A DNA stretch of 48,094 nt from a virus, in the IMG/VR virus record IMGVR_UViG_3300032284_000424, positions 1 to 48,094 of that record, one strand, 5' to 3'. The notes below the pieces were generated by a model that saw only the letters and a program-made list of their open reading frames with translations, was not told where the DNA came from and did no database searches. Position numbers and translations under genes: made by a program. This document shows positions 2,666-44,300 of the stretch, one piece after another (positions within the stretch are counted from its first letter, which is position 1; every line of letters starts with the position of its first letter).

Positions 2666-3215
2666 TCCTGATCGTTTCACCTTTCAAAAGGAAGGTTACA
2701 TCAAACGCTGTGAGGAAGAAGGTAAACTGCCTAATCCCGCTTATGTTGAAATGTATAAGAAATGGAGAGAGGAAGCCGACGCCAAGGTTGAAGATACCTC
2801 ATGGCAAGAGTACAACCTCGAATACGATCTCCGAAGCACATCTTGGATAGTTGAAAAATGTAAAAACGAAAACTATGCCCAAAACATGTACGCCGCAATT
2901 TGTAATAACCAATTTGCCAAATTTACGCAAACTGGAGATCGTATTGAAACCTATAGAAACCTAAGAGAAGATTATTGGAGTGCCAGCTGGCGTAGTTCGG
3001 GCGGTATTGTAGCTAATCTTCGTGGCGAAGGTGACTACATCGATTGGTACTGCTCGGGGATCGGCAGTCAAGAAGCCGGATACGGACTAAGTGATAAAAA
3101 GCCAAAACTTGATGAAGATAAGCGTACCTATGTACCAGAAGGCGAAATCACTGAAGAAATTAAAGAAGACCTAGCTAAACTAGGATGGGTCGGATTTCCA
3201 TGGAAGGATGAATAA
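2637..3215 (+). CDS. Conserved phage protein, 192 aa, unknown function
   Basis: Begins MSKNSKIASSPDRFTFQKEGY and carries DLRSTSWIVEKCKNENYAQNMYAAICNNQF and WSASWRSSGGIVANLRGEGDYIDWYCSG as separate conserved-looking blocks. These are the kind of ungapped motif that suggests a real enzyme or binding protein, but I cannot tie them to a characterised family. The open frame extends to TTG 2631; ATG 2637 is the natural start. The terminal LGWVGFPWKDE ends with TAA overlapping the next ATG by one base. Soluble, cytoplasmic. Confidence 0.7.
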   Translation: MSKNSKIASSPDRFTFQKEGYIKRCEEEGKLPNPAYVEMYKKWREEADAKVEDTSWQEYNLEYDLRSTSWIVEKCKNENYAQNMYAAICNNQFAKFTQTGDRIETYRNLREDYWSASWRSSGGIVANLRGEGDYIDWYCSGIGSQEAGYGLSDKKPKLDEDKRTYVPEGEITEEIKEDLAKLGWVGFPWKDE

Positions 3216-3787: not shown

Positions 3788-3795
3788 TATAAATA
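3788..3795 (+). promoter_or_regulatory. Perfect match to T4 late promoter TATAAATA
   Basis: TATAAATA lies in the 15-base gap before the methyltransferase ATG 3803. A T4-type late start would fall about 6 nt downstream, near 3801-3802, giving an almost leaderless mRNA. In an AT-rich genome a chance match is possible, so this is weak alone; it gains support from other TAAATA sites in intergenic gaps. Confidence 0.35.
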
Positions 3796-3802
3796 CGTGA
3801 AT

Positions 3803-5056
3803 ATGAAAACAGCCCTACTATATACAACACAAGATTTCCTAGCACAGTTCAAACTAGACAAAACCATTTCGTTTGATGACTTTAGTAAAAAGTTATCAGT
3901 ATTAAACGGTAGTGATACTTCTGGTCAGTTTGTAGTTCGTAGCGACCTAGACACATTTGTAGCCCGTGTATCAAAAAAAGATAACCGTTTACAACGACTA
4001 GATCTTTATAAGCGTAAACTGTACAAGATGATTGTACAGGAACCCGAGAAAGCATTAGAAGCATGGTTTGATAGAACTGCTGGCATCAAAGAAGAACTAA
4101 AGTTTTATTTTGAAATTCCAGATGCTGACATTTTAGAAGGCAATACTTTTGCCGGGCGCACTAATTCCAAATACGGACGCATCTGTAAAAACATCAATTT
4201 TGAAAACTTCTACAATACAAAGAAGTTGTACGACAACGATTTTGAATATGTTGTTGGCCTAATGAAAGCCATGTTTGAAGACTACAAACTACGCAACAGT
4301 CTAGTGGGTCCAGCGTTCTTTGATCACATCTGTAAGATCGATGATGACTATGGACAGTTCTGGACAGACTTCATGATGGGGTGTAATCGTGCCAGCATTT
4401 TTAATCCAGCAACCTACAAGGGCATATTAGATAATGTATTCACTGGCGACACATTGTTTGCCCCAGTCATGGGTTGGAATGCCTATCAGTTGGGATTCTA
4501 CAGTAGCAAATTTAAGAACTTTATAGCCACAGATGTAATCCCAGATGTTGTCGACAATGGCTCATTGTTACACGCAGAATGGTTAAAGAACGCAGACACC
4601 AGTTTGTTTGAAATGCCAGAAAAGACTGTGGACCTGTATCTATGCCCCAGTGAACAGTTAGATGCTAGACATGATTTTATTAAAAAGTACAAAGGAAAAG
4701 TAGACGCAGTATTACTAAGTCCTCCGTATTTTGATTTGGAAATATATCCTAGCGAAGATCAAAGTTTTGCCAGCTTTCCAAATTACGATGCTTGGTTAAA
4801 GGGTTATTGGGAAGAAACAGTTAAGCTATGTGTACGGGTAATGAAGCCCGGCGCTAAGTTTGGATTTGTTATCAGTAACTATAGAAACAAGGCAAAAGAA
4901 GAAGTCCAAATTAGTCAGGACATGAGAGATGTAGTACTAAAGCACTTAACTTTGGATAACCAATACAGAGTACAATGGAGTGCTATCGCGGGCTCTAGAC
5001 AGGCCAAAAAGACAGTTGGCGGGAACTTTGAAGACCTTTGGGTTTTTAAGAAATAA
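3803..5056 (+). CDS. SAM-dependent DNA methyltransferase (amino-methylating type)
   Basis: 417 residues from ATG 3803 (GTG 3797 is an alternative; neither has a clear SD). Around residues 220-245 the segment FAPVMGWNAYQLGFYSSKF leads to FIATDV, in the position of the SAM-binding motif I with an acidic strand end. The segment VDAVLLSPPYFDLEIYPSED near residues 303-322 carries SPPYF, a form of catalytic motif IV (D/N/S-PP-Y/F) of N6-adenine and N4-cytosine methyltransferases. The following MKPGAKFGFVISNYR is the expected next strand. The first 200 residues lack motifs and may recognise DNA. It could protect phage DNA from host restriction or pair with the possible nuclease encoded just upstream. 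Confidence 0.75.
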   Translation: MKTALLYTTQDFLAQFKLDKTISFDDFSKKLSVLNGSDTSGQFVVRSDLDTFVARVSKKDNRLQRLDLYKRKLYKMIVQEPEKALEAWFDRTAGIKEELKFYFEIPDADILEGNTFAGRTNSKYGRICKNINFENFYNTKKLYDNDFEYVVGLMKAMFEDYKLRNSLVGPAFFDHICKIDDDYGQFWTDFMMGCNRASIFNPATYKGILDNVFTGDTLFAPVMGWNAYQLGFYSSKFKNFIATDVIPDVVDNGSLLHAEWLKNADTSLFEMPEKTVDLYLCPSEQLDARHDFIKKYKGKVDAVLLSPPYFDLEIYPSEDQSFASFPNYDAWLKGYWEETVKLCVRVMKPGAKFGFVISNYRNKAKEEVQISQDMRDVVLKHLTLDNQYRVQWSAIAGSRQAKKTVGGNFEDLWVFKK

Positions 5057-5073: not shown

Positions 5074-5102
5074 TTGACATAGTCCCCGTTTGGCTGTATA
5101 AT
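5074..5102 (+). promoter_or_regulatory. Consensus sigma-70 promoter for the 5134 gene
   Basis: TTGACA (5074-5079), 17-base spacer, TATAAT (5097-5102): both hexamers perfect and spacing optimal. Expected +1 near 5109, leaving a leader of about 25 nt that contains SD AAGGAG before ATG 5134. This is the strongest early-type promoter in the window. Confidence 0.85.
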
Positions 5103-9998: not shown

Positions 9999-10622
9999 AT
10001 GAGTTTAATCCCAATGGTCGTAGAAAAGACATCTTCAGGTGAACGAGCCTACGACATTTATAGCCGACTGTTAAAAGAGCGTATCATTATGCTCAATGGG
10101 CCAGTAGAAGACAATATGGCCAATGTAATTGTTGCTCAGTTGCTATTCTTGGAATCAGAGGATTCTGGTAAAGACATTAGCTTGTTTATCAACAGTCCGG
10201 GTGGGGCAGTTACAGCAGGGCTAGCTATCTACGATACAATGCAGTTTATCAAACCAGATGTTGCTACCTATGTTATGGGGCAGGCTTGTTCAATGGGTAG
10301 TTTCCTAGCACAAGCAGGTACCGCAGGTAAGCGATTTGTATTGCCCGAAGCTCGTACAATGATTCATCGTGTTAGCTCGGGCACACGGGGTACAAGCGGT
10401 AGCGTTCATGTTCAAGACCTACAGTTTGAGGACGCAAAACGCAGTTTCGAAGAATCAAAACGAGTTAACGAGCGACTAACTCAACTGTATGTTAAACACA
10501 ATACCGCAGGCAAGAGCTACGATGAGTTGTTTGAAACTATGAAATTTGACACATTTTTAAGTGCTCAAGAAGCCGTAGACTACGGTTTAGCTGATAAAAT
10601 TGTAGATAAACGACCCGATTAA
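9999..10622 (+). CDS. clpP: ClpP-family serine protease
   Basis: 207 residues, the usual ClpP length. Catalytic Ser98 lies in [10 protein letters not shown], His123 in ARTMIHRV and Asp184 in [11 protein letters not shown]; the SPGG turn of the oxyanion region is present ([12 protein letters not shown]). The distance from His to Asp is 61 residues against 49 in E. coli ClpP, so the handle region carries about 12 extra residues around [15 protein letters not shown]. ClpP forms a tetradecameric chamber fed by ClpX or ClpA; a phage copy may work with host ATPases or cleave virion proteins. SD AAGGA precedes ATG 9999. It is the last gene of the rightward block before the hairpin at 10631. Confidence 0.92.
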
Positions 10623-10630
10623 GTCTATAT

Positions 10631-10683
10631 CATGGTTGTGCTAAATACTGATATTAGCATCTATTTAGGACAACACAACCATG
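10631..10683 (+). promoter_or_regulatory. Long hairpin enclosing a late-promoter-like motif and the start codon of the 10681 gene
   Basis: Arms 10631-10640 and 10674-10683 are perfect 10-base inverted repeats; inside them 10641-10647 (CTAAATA) pairs with 10662-10668 (TATTTAG). This gives 17 pairs with a 5-base bulge and a 14-base loop. The 3' arm contains AGGA and the ATG (10681-10683). The TAAATA core (10642-10647) would start transcripts near 10653, excluding the 5' arm. No U tract follows, so a terminator is unlikely. The layout predicts silent read-through RNA and translatable late RNA. Confidence 0.65.
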
Positions 10684-11769
10684 GTAAAAACCTTCGAGCA
10701 ATCAACAACACTACAAGATCTTAATCTTCAGCCAGGGGATCTAAGCGGTGATCTAATCAACGGCGGCACGATTACTAATTTTGCCAGTACTGGTATTAGT
10801 GACCTAGCAACAGAGACTACCTTAACAGTTGAAGATGGTAAAATAACTGTTGATCAAGTTTCAGCAGATATATTATCTGTAAACACAATTAAAGGCGATC
10901 AAATTGTTATCCGTGGCGATATTAAGGTATACGGTATCGTCGACGCCGGATTTGTACGCACTACAGAAGTTATTACAAATCAAAGATACGAAAAACAATA
11001 CTTAGAATTTGCTCAAGATAATGAGCAAGGTACTAATGTAGGTACAGGTTTGTTATGGCCAAGTAGTGGTTATAATAAACAATTAGTATATAGAAATAAT
11101 CCAGATCGTTTCTTCCTAAGCGAAAGCGTTGACCTTGCTCCAGGCCGCGAATTTACCATTAATGGTACATCAGTTTTAACATCTGGAAACTTAGGTGCTG
11201 GAGTTGTAGACAGTAATTTACAAACACTTGGTAACCTAAAAGACCTAACAGTAATTGGCAATGTTAACATCGGTGACATGGTTCATTACGATGCTCAACA
11301 AGGTAAGTTTGCCATTGGTAACGCAGAACCAACACATTTGTTCTCTGTGTATGATTTTGAAAGCGATACAGACTTTTATATCGACGGTGATAAGAATGGT
11401 CGTGCTAGAGCAGGTACATTTAATAACCGCCCAGTTGATATTATTACAGATGACCAAGTCCGTATTAGTATCGAAGACCAAGGTGATATTACACTAGGTA
11501 AAGAAGGTCGTGACACAGCAGTAACTCGTGTATATGGTAAATTGTCCGTAGGTATTAAGAACCCACAAGAACAATTTGAAGTTGCGGGCAACATGAGAAT
11601 TGGTGGTAAACTGTTTGCTCAAGGCGATCAAGCACCGACAGAAGGTCACTACTATCAAGGTGATATTATTTGGAATACAAACCCAAGAGCTAATGCTTAC
11701 ATTGGTTGGGTATGTACTCAAAGCGGATTCCCAGGTACATGGAATTCGTTTGGACAAATCTTCGGATAA
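10681..11769 (+). CDS. Tail-fibre / virion appendage-like protein, 362 aa
   Basis: Beta-rich, low in Cys and Lys, with short repeated strands such as GDIKVYGIVDAGFVRTTEV, LKDLTVIGNVNIGD and VYGKLSVGIKNPQEQFEVAG. The last matches the phage-appendage pattern in which a beta-helical stem precedes GNMRIGGKL. The C-terminus (YYQGDIIWNTNPRANAYIGW, then VCTQSGFPGTWNSFG) resembles a small receptor-binding tip found on glycosyl-hydrolase-like and fibre proteins. It belongs functionally with the fibre block at 14850-39624 but lies about 3 kb upstream among metabolic genes. That placement fits the special late-expression hairpin over its start. Confidence 0.7.
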   Translation: MVKTFEQSTTLQDLNLQPGDLSGDLINGGTITNFASTGISDLATETTLTVEDGKITVDQVSADILSVNTIKGDQIVIRGDIKVYGIVDAGFVRTTEVITNQRYEKQYLEFAQDNEQGTNVGTGLLWPSSGYNKQLVYRNNPDRFFLSESVDLAPGREFTINGTSVLTSGNLGAGVVDSNLQTLGNLKDLTVIGNVNIGDMVHYDAQQGKFAIGNAEPTHLFSVYDFESDTDFYIDGDKNGRARAGTFNNRPVDIITDDQVRISIEDQGDITLGKEGRDTAVTRVYGKLSVGIKNPQEQFEVAGNMRIGGKLFAQGDQAPTEGHYYQGDIIWNTNPRANAYIGWVCTQSGFPGTWNSFGQIFG

Positions 11770-11790: not shown

Positions 11791-11822
11791 GCTCCCACAG
11801 TAAATAAATTACTTATGGGAGC
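11791..11822 (+). promoter_or_regulatory. Hairpin with late-promoter-like TAAATA inside and SD in its 3' arm
   Basis: GCTCCCA (11791-11797) pairs with TGGGAGC (11816-11822), and inside it AGTAA (11799-11803) pairs with TTACT (11809-11813), leaving a 5-base loop. TAAATA is at 11801-11806. The SD GGGAG (11817-11821) of the 11829 gene is fully paired. A transcript begun near 11812 would lose the 5' arm and expose the SD. Same architecture as at 10631-10683. Confidence 0.6.
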
Positions 11823-11828
11823 AACATT

Positions 11829-12161
11829 ATGGATAAAAAAATAAATCACCACCTTAGGCATCTTAAGGCATTTAATGATCAAAGGAGAGCTTGGTTAGTA
11901 TTGAGCTTTTTCGTCACGGCAACTATTTTAAAAATTGTATTTGATTGGAAGTCACTCAAATCCGCACATATCATTTGGATGTTTTTAACTTTAGGATTTA
12001 CTGTTTCTGTAGTTTGGTGGTATTGGACTATGCGTCTAATCCGTCAACTTATAGATCACAGAAAAGACGAGTCCGAAATACTATATGACATAGTACAGGC
12101 TATCCGCGATATTCAAACTGAAGTAAAAAATTTACCAAAGGATATTGACAAAGATAAGTAA
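11829..12161 (+). CDS. Two-span membrane protein, 110 aa
   Basis: Residues about 20-37 (RRAWLVLSFFVTATILKIVF) and 48-70 (HIIWMFLTLGFTVSVVWWYW) are hydrophobic helices with a short KSLKS loop between them. A basic N-terminus and the charged C-terminal coiled coil (SEILYDIVQAIRDIQTEVKN) both probably face the cytoplasm. It resembles a holin or membrane anchor in size, but the lysis genes are 34 kb away, so that name is not justified. SD GGGAG is 7 bases from ATG 11829 and locked in the hairpin above. Confidence 0.7.
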   Translation: MDKKINHHLRHLKAFNDQRRAWLVLSFFVTATILKIVFDWKSLKSAHIIWMFLTLGFTVSVVWWYWTMRLIRQLIDHRKDESEILYDIVQAIRDIQTEVKNLPKDIDKDK

Positions 12162-12172
12162 TAGTATATAAT
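12145..12172 (+). promoter_or_regulatory. Consensus sigma-70 promoter for the QueD-like gene
   Basis: TTGACA (12145-12150), 16-base spacer, TATAAT (12167-12172). It lies across the end of the upstream membrane-protein gene. Expected +1 near 12179, giving a leader of roughly 80 nt before ATG 12261, unusually long for this window. The leader begins with AGCGG (12181-12185), which can pair with CCGCT (12205-12209), and ends with SD AAGGAG. Confidence 0.75.
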
Positions 12173-14849: not shown

Positions 14850-17800
14850 ATGGCAAACAAACAAATCATCAACATTGGTAATCAAAGTAACGACGGAACC
14901 GGCGATACAGTACGCGATGCGTTCGCTAAAGTAAACAGTAACTTTGACGATCTCTATAATGTAGCAGGCTTAGGCGATGGTCTACGCTTTATCAAACTTC
15001 GTGAAGCTCCAGCAGTTTTAGAACAAAATACCGTATTAGGTATTAACACTTCTGCTACAAAAATTGTACAGCGTACAGTTGTTGCTAGCACAGGTATTTC
15101 TGTTACTATCACTGATGATAACATTATCATTGCCAACACCGCTACTTCTTTAGCAATTGATCCAAATACAGGTGCTACACCATTAAGTTCTAATCTAGAT
15201 GGTCTTTACAGTCACAAGGGTATTAAATTTGCCGAGCCGTACAACGATTACGATACTGTAACTAAAAAATGGGTTTATGATAACTTCTTAAACCGTAAAG
15301 CAGAATATGTAAGTGACGATGTTCCTCAAGGCACACCTATTCACCTTCCAGAAGGTAGTACACTATTAAACAATGTTATAGCTGTTAATACTGCTACAAA
15401 GGCAGGACATTTAGTTACAAAAGGCTACGCAGATACAAAAATTGCCAGCTCTGGTACATACGCAATTGATCCTGCTACTGGTTCTATAAACACCTCTATG
15501 GGGGTTATGAGCGGACCGTTAGTACTGTTCCGTGACCCAATTACACAAGACGATGTAGATTGGAACGGTAAAATTGCCGCTACAAAATCATATGTTGACA
15601 GTTCTAGTTTTGTTAGTTCAGTTAACTTCTATGTTGCTACTAGCGGTCGTGATAATCGTACAGATATTCCTTCTTACAAAAAGGGCCGTGCGCTAGCCTA
15701 CGCATTTAAAACAATTGGTCAAGCTGCATTAGCCGCAGAGCAAATGCTAGCAGTTAGTCAAATTACAATTGGTGTTTATCAAAAGACAATTACAACTAAT
15801 AACGGTTTAACTGATGTTACTATTATTAGAAATACAGACAGCACACCAGTTCCGGGCGCAACTCGAATTACAGTTAACTGGACTGGAGGAAGCGGAACTG
15901 ATGCCTATAGTGACGGTAGTTTATTCCCAGGATGCTATATCTTAGGTGTTAATAGCGGTGCTATTGGTATTGTTGAAAAGATTGGTTATACTACAAGTCC
16001 AAACGAAGAACACTATGATATTGTTCCAGTTGACTATGCTAAAACTTTAACTAGTGATTTAACAGTTTTACCAGATTCAACTCTTGGACATATAACAACA
16101 GGAACTATTACACTACAATTTAATACACCAAATTTAGTTAACATTCCAAGTTTCTGGAAAGGTTATACATTTACTACCGACGGTGGTGCTGTAGGTACTA
16201 TTGTTGATATCGGGTACCACACTGATATAGTTACTGAAAATGTATACGACCAACTTACAGTTAACTTCTCAAGTCCGTTACCAAACACAAATACCATAGC
16301 CGGAGCAAACTGGCATGTATATAGTGGTTCCTTTGAACTTGGTGAACAACTTCGTTGGGGACAGAGACAAGAAAAAACTCAAATTACTCTACTAGTTGAA
16401 TCTGGCGAGTACGGTGAAAACTATCCTATTAAATTATGTAACAACGTTTCTCTTAAGGGAGATGAATTCCGTCGTTCGATTCCTAAACCAGGTAGGTTTA
16501 TTAACAGTGAAGTTCCTACAATTTCAGTTAGCCCATGGGTTAATACACACTTCCGTAGGGACACACAAGTCGATGGTTTACTAGTTGCGCAAGTTGATAC
16601 ATCTGTAGACTACGCACAAATTAACGAAGTTGTATACGCCACTCCTAATCAAACACAAAATGATTCAGTTACAGGAGTAGTAACATTTACTGTTACAGCT
16701 ACTATTGCTGGTACAGGTCCAGATCTTAGTTACACAGTTGACCCGACTTGGAAAGGCAAAGTATTTGTGGGCCATGGTGGTCAAGGTGAAATCACAGGTG
16801 TATTGAATAATACATTCTTTGTTAACTTGGCAGAGAATAGTTCATTCAACAGAGCACTAACAACTGTGTCTACGCTAACAGGTGGAGCAGGTGGGGGGTG
16901 GCATGTGTATACTCCAGTCAATCACGGATATCATTACCTAAGAAATGCCAAGAATCCTGTTAACTATGTTATCCCTAACCAAGCTGGTAACTATTTGACT
17001 TCAGCTAGACTGTTGACTTTAAACAGAGCTTACATTCAAGCAGAAGTTACAGCATGGATCGATCAACAAATTTCAATAAATTCTGGTAGCAGTAATACTA
17101 ATATTTGGAACAATACTAATTTCTTAAGTTATTACCAAAACGCTACTGCTCGCGCAAAATGTTATCGAGATGTAGGTACGATTGTCGATGCGATTGCCGC
17201 AGACTTAGATGTAGGTAATATTTCAAACTGTCTAACTGTAGCCGATTCTTATTCCAGTGTTGTAAACGTTGAAAATTATGAAAAGGCACAAACAGCCGCA
17301 GCCATTCAACAGATCGGTGTACTAGCACAAAGAATAGTACAGAATATTCCAACCGGTGACGGAACTGCGATTAATTCTTATCAGACTGGTCAACATCAAG
17401 TATTTGATACTTCGGCGTATCAAACTGATATGGCTGTTATTAAACCAACATTAGGTTTTACGATCAATACCAGTACTGTACATTTTAGTGATCCAGGGTA
17501 CGGATACAGATATCCTCCAATCATTACTTTTGTCGGTGGTAACCCATCACGAGTAGCTAAAGCAACAGCTAACATTGATGCCAACGGAGTTCTTACAGGA
17601 TTAACAGTTAGCGATGTAGGATCTGAATACGAAAGTACTCCACAAATTTTAATAACACCAGTATCTGGATCTACACCTGCTACACCTGCGTCAGCTACTG
17701 TTCAGCTATCTTCTACAGGTAATATTAAATCAGTATCTCTAGTACAAGGCGGATTAAACTACTATTCAACTCCAACTGTATCTATTGTTGGAGACGGTAC

Positions 17801-37558: not shown

Positions 37559-39190
37559 ATGATCGAGCTAAAGCCGTATTATGTTGTCAGTGACAGTCCA
37601 GATCTAAAAGCAGAAATTGTAGCTGACCTACAATCTGCTTCAGGGTCAGACACCATACCTAATCGTGTAGTTGAAATTACAAAACCAATGCCTGGTAGTC
37701 TTCATACGGTCGAAGCAATGCTTACAGATGAAGAAGCGGCTTTACTAAACACAGATGATCGTATTCGTATTGTAGAGCAAGATCCTATTTTATACAAGGG
37801 CATCCGTAAAGGCAGACATGCTTCACGCACTGGAAATTTTAGTAATGACCCTAGAGCTACTCTATCTACCGATAGAAACTACGGGTTAGATCGTAGCACT
37901 ACAAGTACAAATAACTTTACGACTTTATATACATCTACTAATCATACATTTAACTATAATCTAGATGGCACAGGTGTTGACATAATTGTTATGGACACCG
38001 GCGTAGAAGCAAGTCATCCAGAATTTGCTGTTAAGGCAGATGGGACAGGCGGTACTAGAGTTATAAATTACGATTGGACACAACACGGTATTATTACTAG
38101 TGCTCCAACTGGCGGGTTTTTAGGAGACTGCGAAGGTCACGGTAGTAACTGTGCTTCAGTTGCCGCAGGTAACACCAATGGTTGGGCACCCGGTGCCGCA
38201 ATCTACTCATTAAGAATTATCGGAACCGGAGTAACAACTGAACACGACATCACCGACGGAAGAGTATTAGGACTAGTTGATGAAATGGAAGCATGGCAGA
38301 CAATTCTAGCTTTCCATAATAGCAAATCTGTTACAAGTACAGGATACAAAAGACCAACAATAGTAACATGTAGCTACGCTTACAATGACTATTACAAAGC
38401 AGGAAAATTTACTAGTTGTTATTATAGAGGTACTACTCATAGTATTAGTACAACTACTGGCGTAGCGGCAACACAGTATGGAACTATCGGAGCTCCCGAA
38501 GGCGGAGACGGAAGTTTTGGTTATAGATATACAACGGTAGAAGCAGAAATTCAAAGTTGTATAAACGCAGGTATTATTGTTGTTGCCGCCGCTGGCAATA
38601 ACGCACACAAGATTGACACTACATTTTCCGGATCTACTGGAACTGATTACAACAATTATGTTTTAATGACTGACAACCCTGGCGTTCCAAGACCTTATCA
38701 TCAAGGTGCTACCCCCGGATCCTGTCCTAATGTTATCTGTGTAGGCGCATTAGATAATGAATTAACCAGCTATGATGTAAAGGCATATTTTAGTGCCACA
38801 GGACCTAGAGTAGATATTTTTGCTCCAGGCTCATTAATTATGGGAGCATGGTCCAGCAGTTCATATATAACTGCCGCTGTTCAAGATCCTAGAAATACAA
38901 CATATTGGTTAAACAAAATATCAGGAACTAGTCAAGCAACTCCGCAGGTAACAGGAGTAATAGCCTGCTTATTACAAGCTCGCCCATGGATAACTGCTCA
39001 ACAAGTACAGTTCTGGCTTAAAGCGGCTGGACTAAAAGGGTTAATGAACGAAGCTGGGTATGTCGGAAGTTCACTTACTTCGGCATGGACTACAGGAACT
39101 TATACCAATCTAGCAAGTTTACAAGGTGGTGTTAATACTATTTTATTTCAGCCGTTCAGCCTGCCAAACCCGTTAACATTACACGGATAA
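37559..39190 (+). CDS. Subtilisin-family (S8) serine protease in the tail-fibre cluster, 543 aa
   Basis: The full catalytic set is present: Asp146 in DIIVMDTGVE, His194 in CEGHGSNCASVAAG, oxyanion Asn347 in AAAGNNA and Ser458 in SGTSQATPQVTG. About 100 residues precede the catalytic domain; they include LHTVEAMLTDEEAALLN and IRIVEQDP, which look like an I9-type inhibitor prodomain. No signal peptide is seen, so it is made in the host cytoplasm and probably packaged as a virion protein. It sits four bases after a receptor-binding fibre gene and before another structural gene. It might process fibres or open the host surface during adsorption. No SD is evident; the gene is probably translated by coupling. 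Confidence 0.88.
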   Translation: MIELKPYYVVSDSPDLKAEIVADLQSASGSDTIPNRVVEITKPMPGSLHTVEAMLTDEEAALLNTDDRIRIVEQDPILYKGIRKGRHASRTGNFSNDPRATLSTDRNYGLDRSTTSTNNFTTLYTSTNHTFNYNLDGTGVDIIVMDTGVEASHPEFAVKADGTGGTRVINYDWTQHGIITSAPTGGFLGDCEGHGSNCASVAAGNTNGWAPGAAIYSLRIIGTGVTTEHDITDGRVLGLVDEMEAWQTILAFHNSKSVTSTGYKRPTIVTCSYAYNDYYKAGKFTSCYYRGTTHSISTTTGVAATQYGTIGAPEGGDGSFGYRYTTVEAEIQSCINAGIIVVAAAGNNAHKIDTTFSGSTGTDYNNYVLMTDNPGVPRPYHQGATPGSCPNVICVGALDNELTSYDVKAYFSATGPRVDIFAPGSLIMGAWSSSSYITAAVQDPRNTTYWLNKISGTSQATPQVTGVIACLLQARPWITAQQVQFWLKAAGLKGLMNEAGYVGSSLTSAWTTGTYTNLASLQGGVNTILFQPFSLPNPLTLHG

Positions 39191-39193
39191 ATA
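39186..39193 (+). promoter_or_regulatory. Late-promoter-like GATAAATA before the 39199 gene
   Basis: GATAAATA ends 5 bases before ATG 39199. The bases GATAA-ATA-TTATC (39186-39198) form a small dyad just before the start codon. A T4-type start would fall at about the ATG, so the mRNA would be leaderless or the match is fortuitous. Confidence 0.35.
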
Positions 39194-39198
39194 TTATC

Positions 39199-39624
39199 AT
39201 GACAAGTACAGTAACACAATACAGCAGTTTAATAGATGAAACCTTTCCTATAGCAGGACAGGCTAATGATACACAGGGTTTTAGAGATAACTTTGCAGCT
39301 ATTAAAAATGCGTTCACTAGTACTTCAAACGAAATCAACAATCTCCAAATTCAGATTAATACTATCGCAAGTACTAGTTCTATATTTGCCGCTAACATAG
39401 CAAGTACAGTAACTACACAGGTTTGGTCCTCACTTTCAAACATATTATCAACTTCATCTGCTGTGTCATATAGATTAGCCGCTCCTGTTAGTTCAACAGG
39501 TGCCCCTGGCGATCTTAAAGGAATGATATATGCTAACAGCACAACTTTATATGTGTGTTATGAAACATGGGTACAACCAGGAACTGATCATATTTGGACT
39601 AAGATAACTACGACAGACTGGTAA
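39199..39624 (+). CDS. Small fibre- or baseplate-associated structural protein, 141 aa
   Basis: FPIAGQANDTQGFRDNFAAI followed by KNAFTSTSNEINNLQIQIN is a version of the GDxxRxAFxKxNxNF attachment module of the giant fibre gene, leading into a trimeric-coiled-coil-like helix. The C-terminus contains APVSSTGAPGDLKGMIYANS and TLYVCYETWVQPGTDHIWTK, a compact beta tip common in phage structural proteins. It closes the fibre block; its TAA overlaps the next ATG (TAATG). Confidence 0.7.
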   Translation: MTSTVTQYSSLIDETFPIAGQANDTQGFRDNFAAIKNAFTSTSNEINNLQIQINTIASTSSIFAANIASTVTTQVWSSLSNILSTSSAVSYRLAAPVSSTGAPGDLKGMIYANSTTLYVCYETWVQPGTDHIWTKITTTDW

Positions 39625-43700: not shown

Positions 43701-43734
43701 GCATAAATATTGCTATAACTGAGAGCATTTATGC
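43701..43734 (+). promoter_or_regulatory. Divergent late-type promoter dyad covering the ATG of the 43731 gene
   Basis: GCATAAAT (43701-43708) and ATTTATGC (43727-43734) are perfect inverted repeats 18 bases apart. The left arm plus the next base is CATAAATA, a late-promoter-like element pointing right; the right arm read leftward is CATAAATG, pointing to phoH. ATG 43731 lies in the right arm, so read-through RNA could hide it, while RNA begun near 43715 would not. An extended -10-like TGCTATAAC (43711-43719) lies between. Confidence 0.5.
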
Positions 43735-44300
43735 ACGATATAGTCGACATTATTAAAAACATACAAACGCTAACTGCTAGTGATCATTCATTTAAAATCC
43801 TTAAAGATTTTGAAAGAGTCCTAGACGAGTTGGATATCTATGTATACAAAAATTGGGAAGATGGTGAGTTACTATCAGGACCGGAAGTTACACGCTATGC
43901 TGTAACCTGTTCTTTTATGTGGCCAGAACATCAAATGCCAGATCCAGAAGGTGGCGCTCGCTTGTTAGATTACGGCTGTAAAGTAACCTATGCTAAAGAG
44001 AATCTGCTAGTACCACGCAAAGTACACAAACCTAGCGATTTCCGCCCAGGCACAAAGAAAGGCAAAATTGACGCACATCCTGTTTGGGTAGTGGGTATTA
44101 CAATGCCTAAGAAATTATTACAAGACCTGTTCCAAGGTTATACAGACCAAGAACATCGCAAACTAGCAGACCTGTTGAAACAGGATCAACTAGAAGGCGA
44201 GATCCAAGCAGAAGCAGGCGCAAGTCAAGAAATACCAATGGACCAAGGTGTGTCCGCAACAGGAGGAGGCCCAGATGCGCAAGAACCAGCACCTGTTTGA
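43731..44300 (+). CDS. Conserved T4-like phage protein, 189 aa, unknown function
   Basis: Helical start (MHDIVDIIKNIQTLTASDHS, FKILKDFERVLDELDIYVYK), a central beta region (EVTRYAVTCSFMWPEHQMPD, GARLLDYGCKVTYAKE), then KIDAHPVWVVGITMPKKLLQ, and an acidic, gly/pro-rich, probably disordered tail. The balance of conserved-looking core and flexible tail is typical of virion or assembly proteins. It overlaps the next gene by 26 nt, and the two are probably functionally linked. SD GAGAG is 5 bases before ATG 43731. Confidence 0.72.
   Translation: MHDIVDIIKNIQTLTASDHSFKILKDFERVLDELDIYVYKNWEDGELLSGPEVTRYAVTCSFMWPEHQMPDPEGGARLLDYGCKVTYAKENLLVPRKVHKPSDFRPGTKKGKIDAHPVWVVGITMPKKLLQDLFQGYTDQEHRKLADLLKQDQLEGEIQAEAGASQEIPMDQGVSATGGGPDAQEPAPV

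Follow-up and report, generated by a model that had tools for sequence, protein, structure and literature searches.

The leader of a fibre-like gene in a 48,094-nucleotide stretch of viral DNA (hereafter the window) folds into a hairpin that carries a late-promoter core in its 5' arm and the start codon in its 3' arm. We read this leader, with a probability of about 0.85, as a timing switch of the type found at the T4 genes e and soc, the textbook cases of the late-promoter hairpin. The kind of switch is known; what is new is a conserved, covarying set of such leaders in uncultured T4-like jumbo phages. To the known switch our analysis adds support from pairing that relatives keep, another copy before the following gene, its non-universality among late leaders and the alternative solutions of distant orthologues. 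The features concerned are listed in Table 1.

Table 1. Features of the window that bear on the leader hairpin
Feature	Position	Strand	Basis or remark
Perfect sigma-70 promoter TTGACA-N17-TATAAT	5074..5102	+	probable early promoter; its unit would run through clpP and enter the fibre gene
clpP-like protease gene, directly upstream	9999..10622	+	Pfam PF00574, E 1.6e-66
5' arm of hairpin	10629..10647	+	predicted only in read-through RNA; folding, pairing kept in L001
Late-promoter core CTAAATA, -12 to -6	10641..10647	+	sequence; Aeh1 consensus (PMC1524935); core in all close orthologues
Predicted late transcription start (+1)	10653..10653	+	T4 late-promoter geometry (PMC1524935)
3' arm of hairpin	10662..10685 (10662-10668 and 10674-10685, bulge 10669-10673)	+	sequence, folding; contains part of SD and start codon
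Fibre-like gene, 362 aa	10681..11769	+	partial PHROG matches; orthologues align from first residue
Second hairpin of the same design, stem GCTCCCA/TGGGAGC	11791..11822	+	GTAAATA 11800-11806 in inner part, SD GGGAG in 3' arm
Small gene behind second hairpin, 110 aa, possible membrane protein	11829..12161	+	ORF
Second perfect sigma-70 promoter, ahead of QueD gene	12145..12172	+	QueD by PHROG

The leader hairpin and its late-promoter core

Sequence and folding agree on an outer stem of ten pairs (10631-10640, CATGGTTGTG, with 10674-10683, CACAACCATG) and an inner stem of seven (10641-10647, CTAAATA, with 10662-10668, TATTTAG). Between the two segments of the 3' arm lies a 5-nt bulge, GACAA, and the pairs U10630-G10684 and A10629-U10685 can extend the stem to 19. 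The 17-pair stem described in a first-pass annotation of this DNA was thus recovered with 17-19 pairs, together with the TAAATA core that it had placed in the 5' arm (10642-10647). Its statement that the complete ATG and part of the Shine-Dalgarno sequence (SD) are paired also held: all three positions of the ATG (10681-10683) and half of the SD AGGA (10667-10670) lie in the hairpin. It is a weak SD at a long distance (10 nt) from the ATG. Folding of the leader, which the annotation had proposed as a check, gave a minimum free energy of -21.3 kcal/mol for 10627-10690 (RNAfold, z -5.1), and with wider flanks (10600-10720) z was -3.7; at both lengths 0 of 200 dinucleotide shuffles were as good. 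Rfam returned nothing relevant, its single match being at chance level, elsewhere and on the minus strand.

T4 late promoters carry TATAAATA at -13 to -6, and the late core of phage Aeh1 is CTAAATA, beginning at -12 (PMC1524935). With CTAAATA at 10641-10647, this published geometry predicts a late 5' end near 10653. RNA starting there is less structured than its own shuffles (-1.6 kcal/mol), and the mean unpaired probability of positions -14 to +3 rises from 0.30 in the long RNA to 0.80 in the RNA from 10653. By the same calculation, truncation took T4 e from about -15 to -2.8 or -0.5 kcal/mol and T4 soc from about -11 to -3.4 or 0.0 kcal/mol, depending on which of the two TAAATA sites was used. 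Large relatives encode a gp55-like late sigma factor: its family (phrog_234, taken from T4 gp55) was matched in 6 of 13 relative records (E 1e-25 to 1e-27). The window, a 48-kb fragment, gave no such match. A search for the sliding clamp returned nothing, not even in the controls.

We consider it quite unlikely that TAAATA is no promoter and that the hairpin controls translation or RNA processing otherwise, as the site of a phage RNA-binding protein, an RNase site or a thermometer. On the + strand of the window the motif does occur at 20 sites, many of them within genes, and the start at 10653 is itself a prediction, but in all close and most distant orthologues the core is kept while its surroundings change, and in other genes the distance from core to ATG peaks sharply. 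The gp55 of the large relatives argues in the same direction, and no conserved loop sequence or structure was seen besides the promoter core.

Genomic context and proposed mechanism

The start codon of the fibre-like gene is correct, as the orthologue alignment begins at MVKTF. The name 'fibre', given in the first-pass annotation, finds support in partial PHROG matches of the protein to tail-fibre and virion proteins, whereas a Pfam search gave no match; a virion role is probable.

Exactly two perfect sigma-70 promoters occur in the window, versus 0.05 expected. RNA from the one at 5074-5102 would cross two 2OG-oxygenase genes and clpP before reaching the fibre gene, and the terminator scan gave no convincing + strand terminator between 5102 and 10681, the end of clpP included. 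Given the perfect sites at 5074-5102 and 12145-12172, the fibre gene and gene 11829 lie between two probable early promoters. Promoter sequence, with this lack of a convincing terminator, is thus what backs the earlier placing of the fibre gene among early genes. Several relatives likewise have same-strand perfect sigma-70 promoters 2-5 kb upstream.

As a separate observation, the records G001, G002, G003 and G006 (behind loci L002, L009, L011 and L048) hold up to 29 perfect sigma-70 promoters per record, versus 0-2 matches of the reversed pattern. Several of the promoters in these large relatives carry a GGTAAAACC-like spacer, for example TTGACAAACTGGTAAAACCACTATATAAT.

In the mechanism that we propose, early RNA from the promoter at 5074-5102 would read through clpP into the fibre gene. 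The read-through leader would fold and take up the AUG and part of its SD in the hairpin, and little protein would be made early. Late in infection, gp55-directed polymerase would initiate at the CTAAATA promoter in the 5' arm; the resulting RNA, beginning near 10653 without the 5' arm, would stay open and be translated.

Pairing is kept through sequence change in close relatives

Scans of viral contigs for relatives yielded more than 100 loci. Searched as a DNA pattern, the core of the hairpin in the window matched the contig of L001 alone. No isolate with the window's leader is at hand, since a nucleotide search of named phages gave clpP only and a protein search partial matches only. Nine positions of the 59-nt leader separate the window from L001, the nearest relative (85% amino acid identity); five of them are in the stem, and 18 of 18 tested pairs are kept. 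The stem changes are G-C to A-U (a double change), C-G to U-G, A-U to G-U and U-G to C-G. When substitutions of the same kind were placed at random, with at least five in the stem, about 0.25% of trials kept all pairs. The leader alignment that the annotation had suggested as a search for compensatory stem changes therefore yielded both compensatory and wobble changes, and the uncompensated loss of pairing that it had named as a refutation was absent in L001.

In the other close orthologues (48-59% amino acid identity) the letters of the arms are mostly different, but the layout of the hairpin is the same. Ten close leaders were folded: in every one the hairpin carries TAAATA, either within its 5' arm or in its apical loop, and the fold outranks 99 or more of 100 shuffles (z -2.7 to -7.1). 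In one type (L005, L006, L007, L047 and L055) the promoter lies in the loop of a GC-rich inner stem and an outer stem covers the SD. In another (L002, L008, L010, L011 and L054) the outer arm ends at or just before the ATG, and an inner TAGTAG/CTACTA stem overlaps the promoter; L009 and L046 have a shorter version of the hairpin. For L005 and L006, pairing of the arm with the start region alone was no better than in shuffles (7/100 and 14/100), because only the SD side is covered. Double-substituted pairs occur inside both of these other leader types, for example GTAATCC/GGATTAC versus GTAGTCC/GGACTAC. Few sequences in the two leader-type alignments vary, which limits the power of shuffle tests on them: by the number of paired cells, the outer stem of the L002/L010 type alone exceeded every shuffle, and counts of double changes reached significance in no case. 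L056 and L094 were rejected as full cases, their outer arms being just partly paired.

In L002 (2154-3026), L008 and L011 the leader is enclosed by the 3' end of an ORF upstream, presumably, from its sequence, a D-Ala-D-Ala carboxypeptidase gene. In L010 that leader recurs as a recognisable copy (about 2926-3003) directly behind clpP, which would fit retention of the leader for a function of its own. The 18 of 18 pairs kept in L001 and the same layout with other arms elsewhere suggest that pairing is kept by selection across relatives.

These comparisons also bear on the reading that the inverted repeat works as DNA, as a palindromic operator or a cruciform at the late promoter, with the RNA fold as a by-product. 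The 5' arm does overlap the promoter, the minus strand has a mirror copy of CTAAATA (10667-10661), and T4 I-TevI provides a precedent by binding an operator that overlaps the late promoter of its own gene (PMC2988022). We nevertheless rate this reading as very unlikely, as the changes C-G to U-G and A-U to G-U between the window and L001 keep RNA pairing and break DNA symmetry, the arms are wholly different between leader types, unlike a protein site, and L005-type leaders have TAAATA in the loop and no second promoter copy. It is highly improbable that the hairpin folds by chance or simply terminates the clpP unit: it does follow the clpP stop codon directly, and AT-rich DNA often forms hairpins, but the shuffles and the pairing kept in relatives speak against chance, and against a terminator speak the lack of a T run 3' of the stem (the next letters are GTAAAAACC) and its absence from the list of the terminator scan.

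Comparison with known switches

The T4 hairpin switch has so far been described for a few genes of T-even phages and Aeh1. In T4 e the hairpin blocks translation of early read-through RNA, reportedly about 100-fold, while late RNA without the 5' part is translated (PMC3014915). The proposed switch of the window would share both properties; e differs in having two late promoters and in guarding against early lysis, whereas the window gene is fibre-like. T4 soc combines a virion gene in an early/middle region with a late core in or by the 5' arm and a fully paired ATG that opens on truncation (PMC2988022); the leader here, of a probable virion gene among putative early genes, resembles it in the place of the core, the pairing of the ATG and the predicted opening. 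The two leaders have no sequence relation, the stem of the window is longer and stronger (-22.8 versus about -11 kcal/mol), and its core is CTAAATA where soc has TATAAATA. The CTAAATA core is common to the window and Aeh1, the phage of the mobE system (PMC1524935). I-TevI, segB and Aeh1 mobE each have a late promoter and a hairpin that sequesters the ribosome-binding site (RBS) for a gene inside an earlier unit (PMC2988022). Those are homing endonuclease genes, whereas the window has a fibre-like gene and a gene for a small, possibly membrane protein.

The first-pass reading as an e/soc-type switch is thus supported from several sides: relatives keep the pairing, truncation frees the start region as in e and soc, the CTAAATA core is a published one, large relatives encode gp55, and a sigma-70 promoter lies upstream. 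In the fibre-like gene of many uncultured jumbo phages the arms vary while pairing and core are kept, and this gives the mechanism comparative support.

A second hairpin at the next gene

Gene 11829 is a second instance of the fibre-gene hairpin design. Its hairpin folds with -17.4 kcal/mol (z -4.8, 0 of 200 shuffles as good) and is kept in the L001 orthologue (z -2.9) and, judged by eye, in L008 with changed letters. The protein had only a sub-threshold Pfam match (PF24838, E 0.003). At 43702-43738 (GCATAAAT/ATTTATGC) a late-promoter core pairs with the ATG region of a virion-protein gene; the fold of this hairpin at 43731 is not significant (z -1.4). At 14850 and 40412 no hairpin covers the start.

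Distant orthologues and predicted leaderless starts

Some distant orthologues have a stem as well. In L013 and L017, 13-15 pairs cover the ATG with ATAAATA in the 5' arm (z -7.7 and -3.9); L080 has a 13-pair stem and L103 one of roughly 10 pairs. Others (L003, L022, L024 and L025) have a terminator-like hairpin followed by ATAAATA, with the ATG 7 nt on and no sequestering hairpin, and by eye the terminator-then-promoter layout is also that of L062, L096, L097, L099 and L119. Many further distant loci, for example L066, L069 and L105, read TAAATA-N5-ATG. A core 5 nt before the ATG puts the predicted +1 on the A of the AUG, so leaderless late mRNAs are predicted. About 1.4-1.5 kb ahead of many of these distant genes, and on their strand, stands a sigma-70 promoter that is perfect or has one mismatch.

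The pattern GATAAATA-N{2-12}-ATG gave 30 matches in eight relatives, with a spacing of 5 in 19 of them; among plus-strand GATAAATA loci whose ATG opens an ORF of at least 60 aa, 8 of 14 have this spacing. Over all loci, a set dominated by one gene family, the spacing between core and ATG peaks at 5 and 7.

The orthologues behind probable early genes form a natural experiment: some use a hairpin, others a terminator or a start predicted to be leaderless. Tentatively, and at slightly less than even odds, we suggest that the position of the late promoter is selected so that translation depends on late initiation. Hairpin, terminator before promoter and leaderless 5-nt start (with read-through RNA that lacks an SD) would then be different solutions, within this group of uncultured T4-like jumbo phages, for a single fibre gene that lies behind early genes. 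A rule that every late leader has a hairpin did not hold: among 46 non-redundant [AC]TAAATA leaders, a few of them with mis-chosen starts (L002, L011), significant pairing of arm and RBS was seen in 17%, versus 4.5% in controls, and is therefore enriched, not general. The arrangements described here offer a sequence rule by which late genes that lie within early regions can be recognised in metagenomic phages.

Two further sites in the window have a core close to a start codon. At 39186-39201 (GATAAATATTATC ATG) a late-promoter core stands exactly 5 nt before the ATG. At 3788-3805, ahead of a gene whose protein has a weak DNA-methylase match, TATAAATAC lies immediately 5' of GTGAATATG; the listed GTG start at 3797 is probably wrong, and with ATG 3803 as the alternative start the late leader would be 2 nt long.
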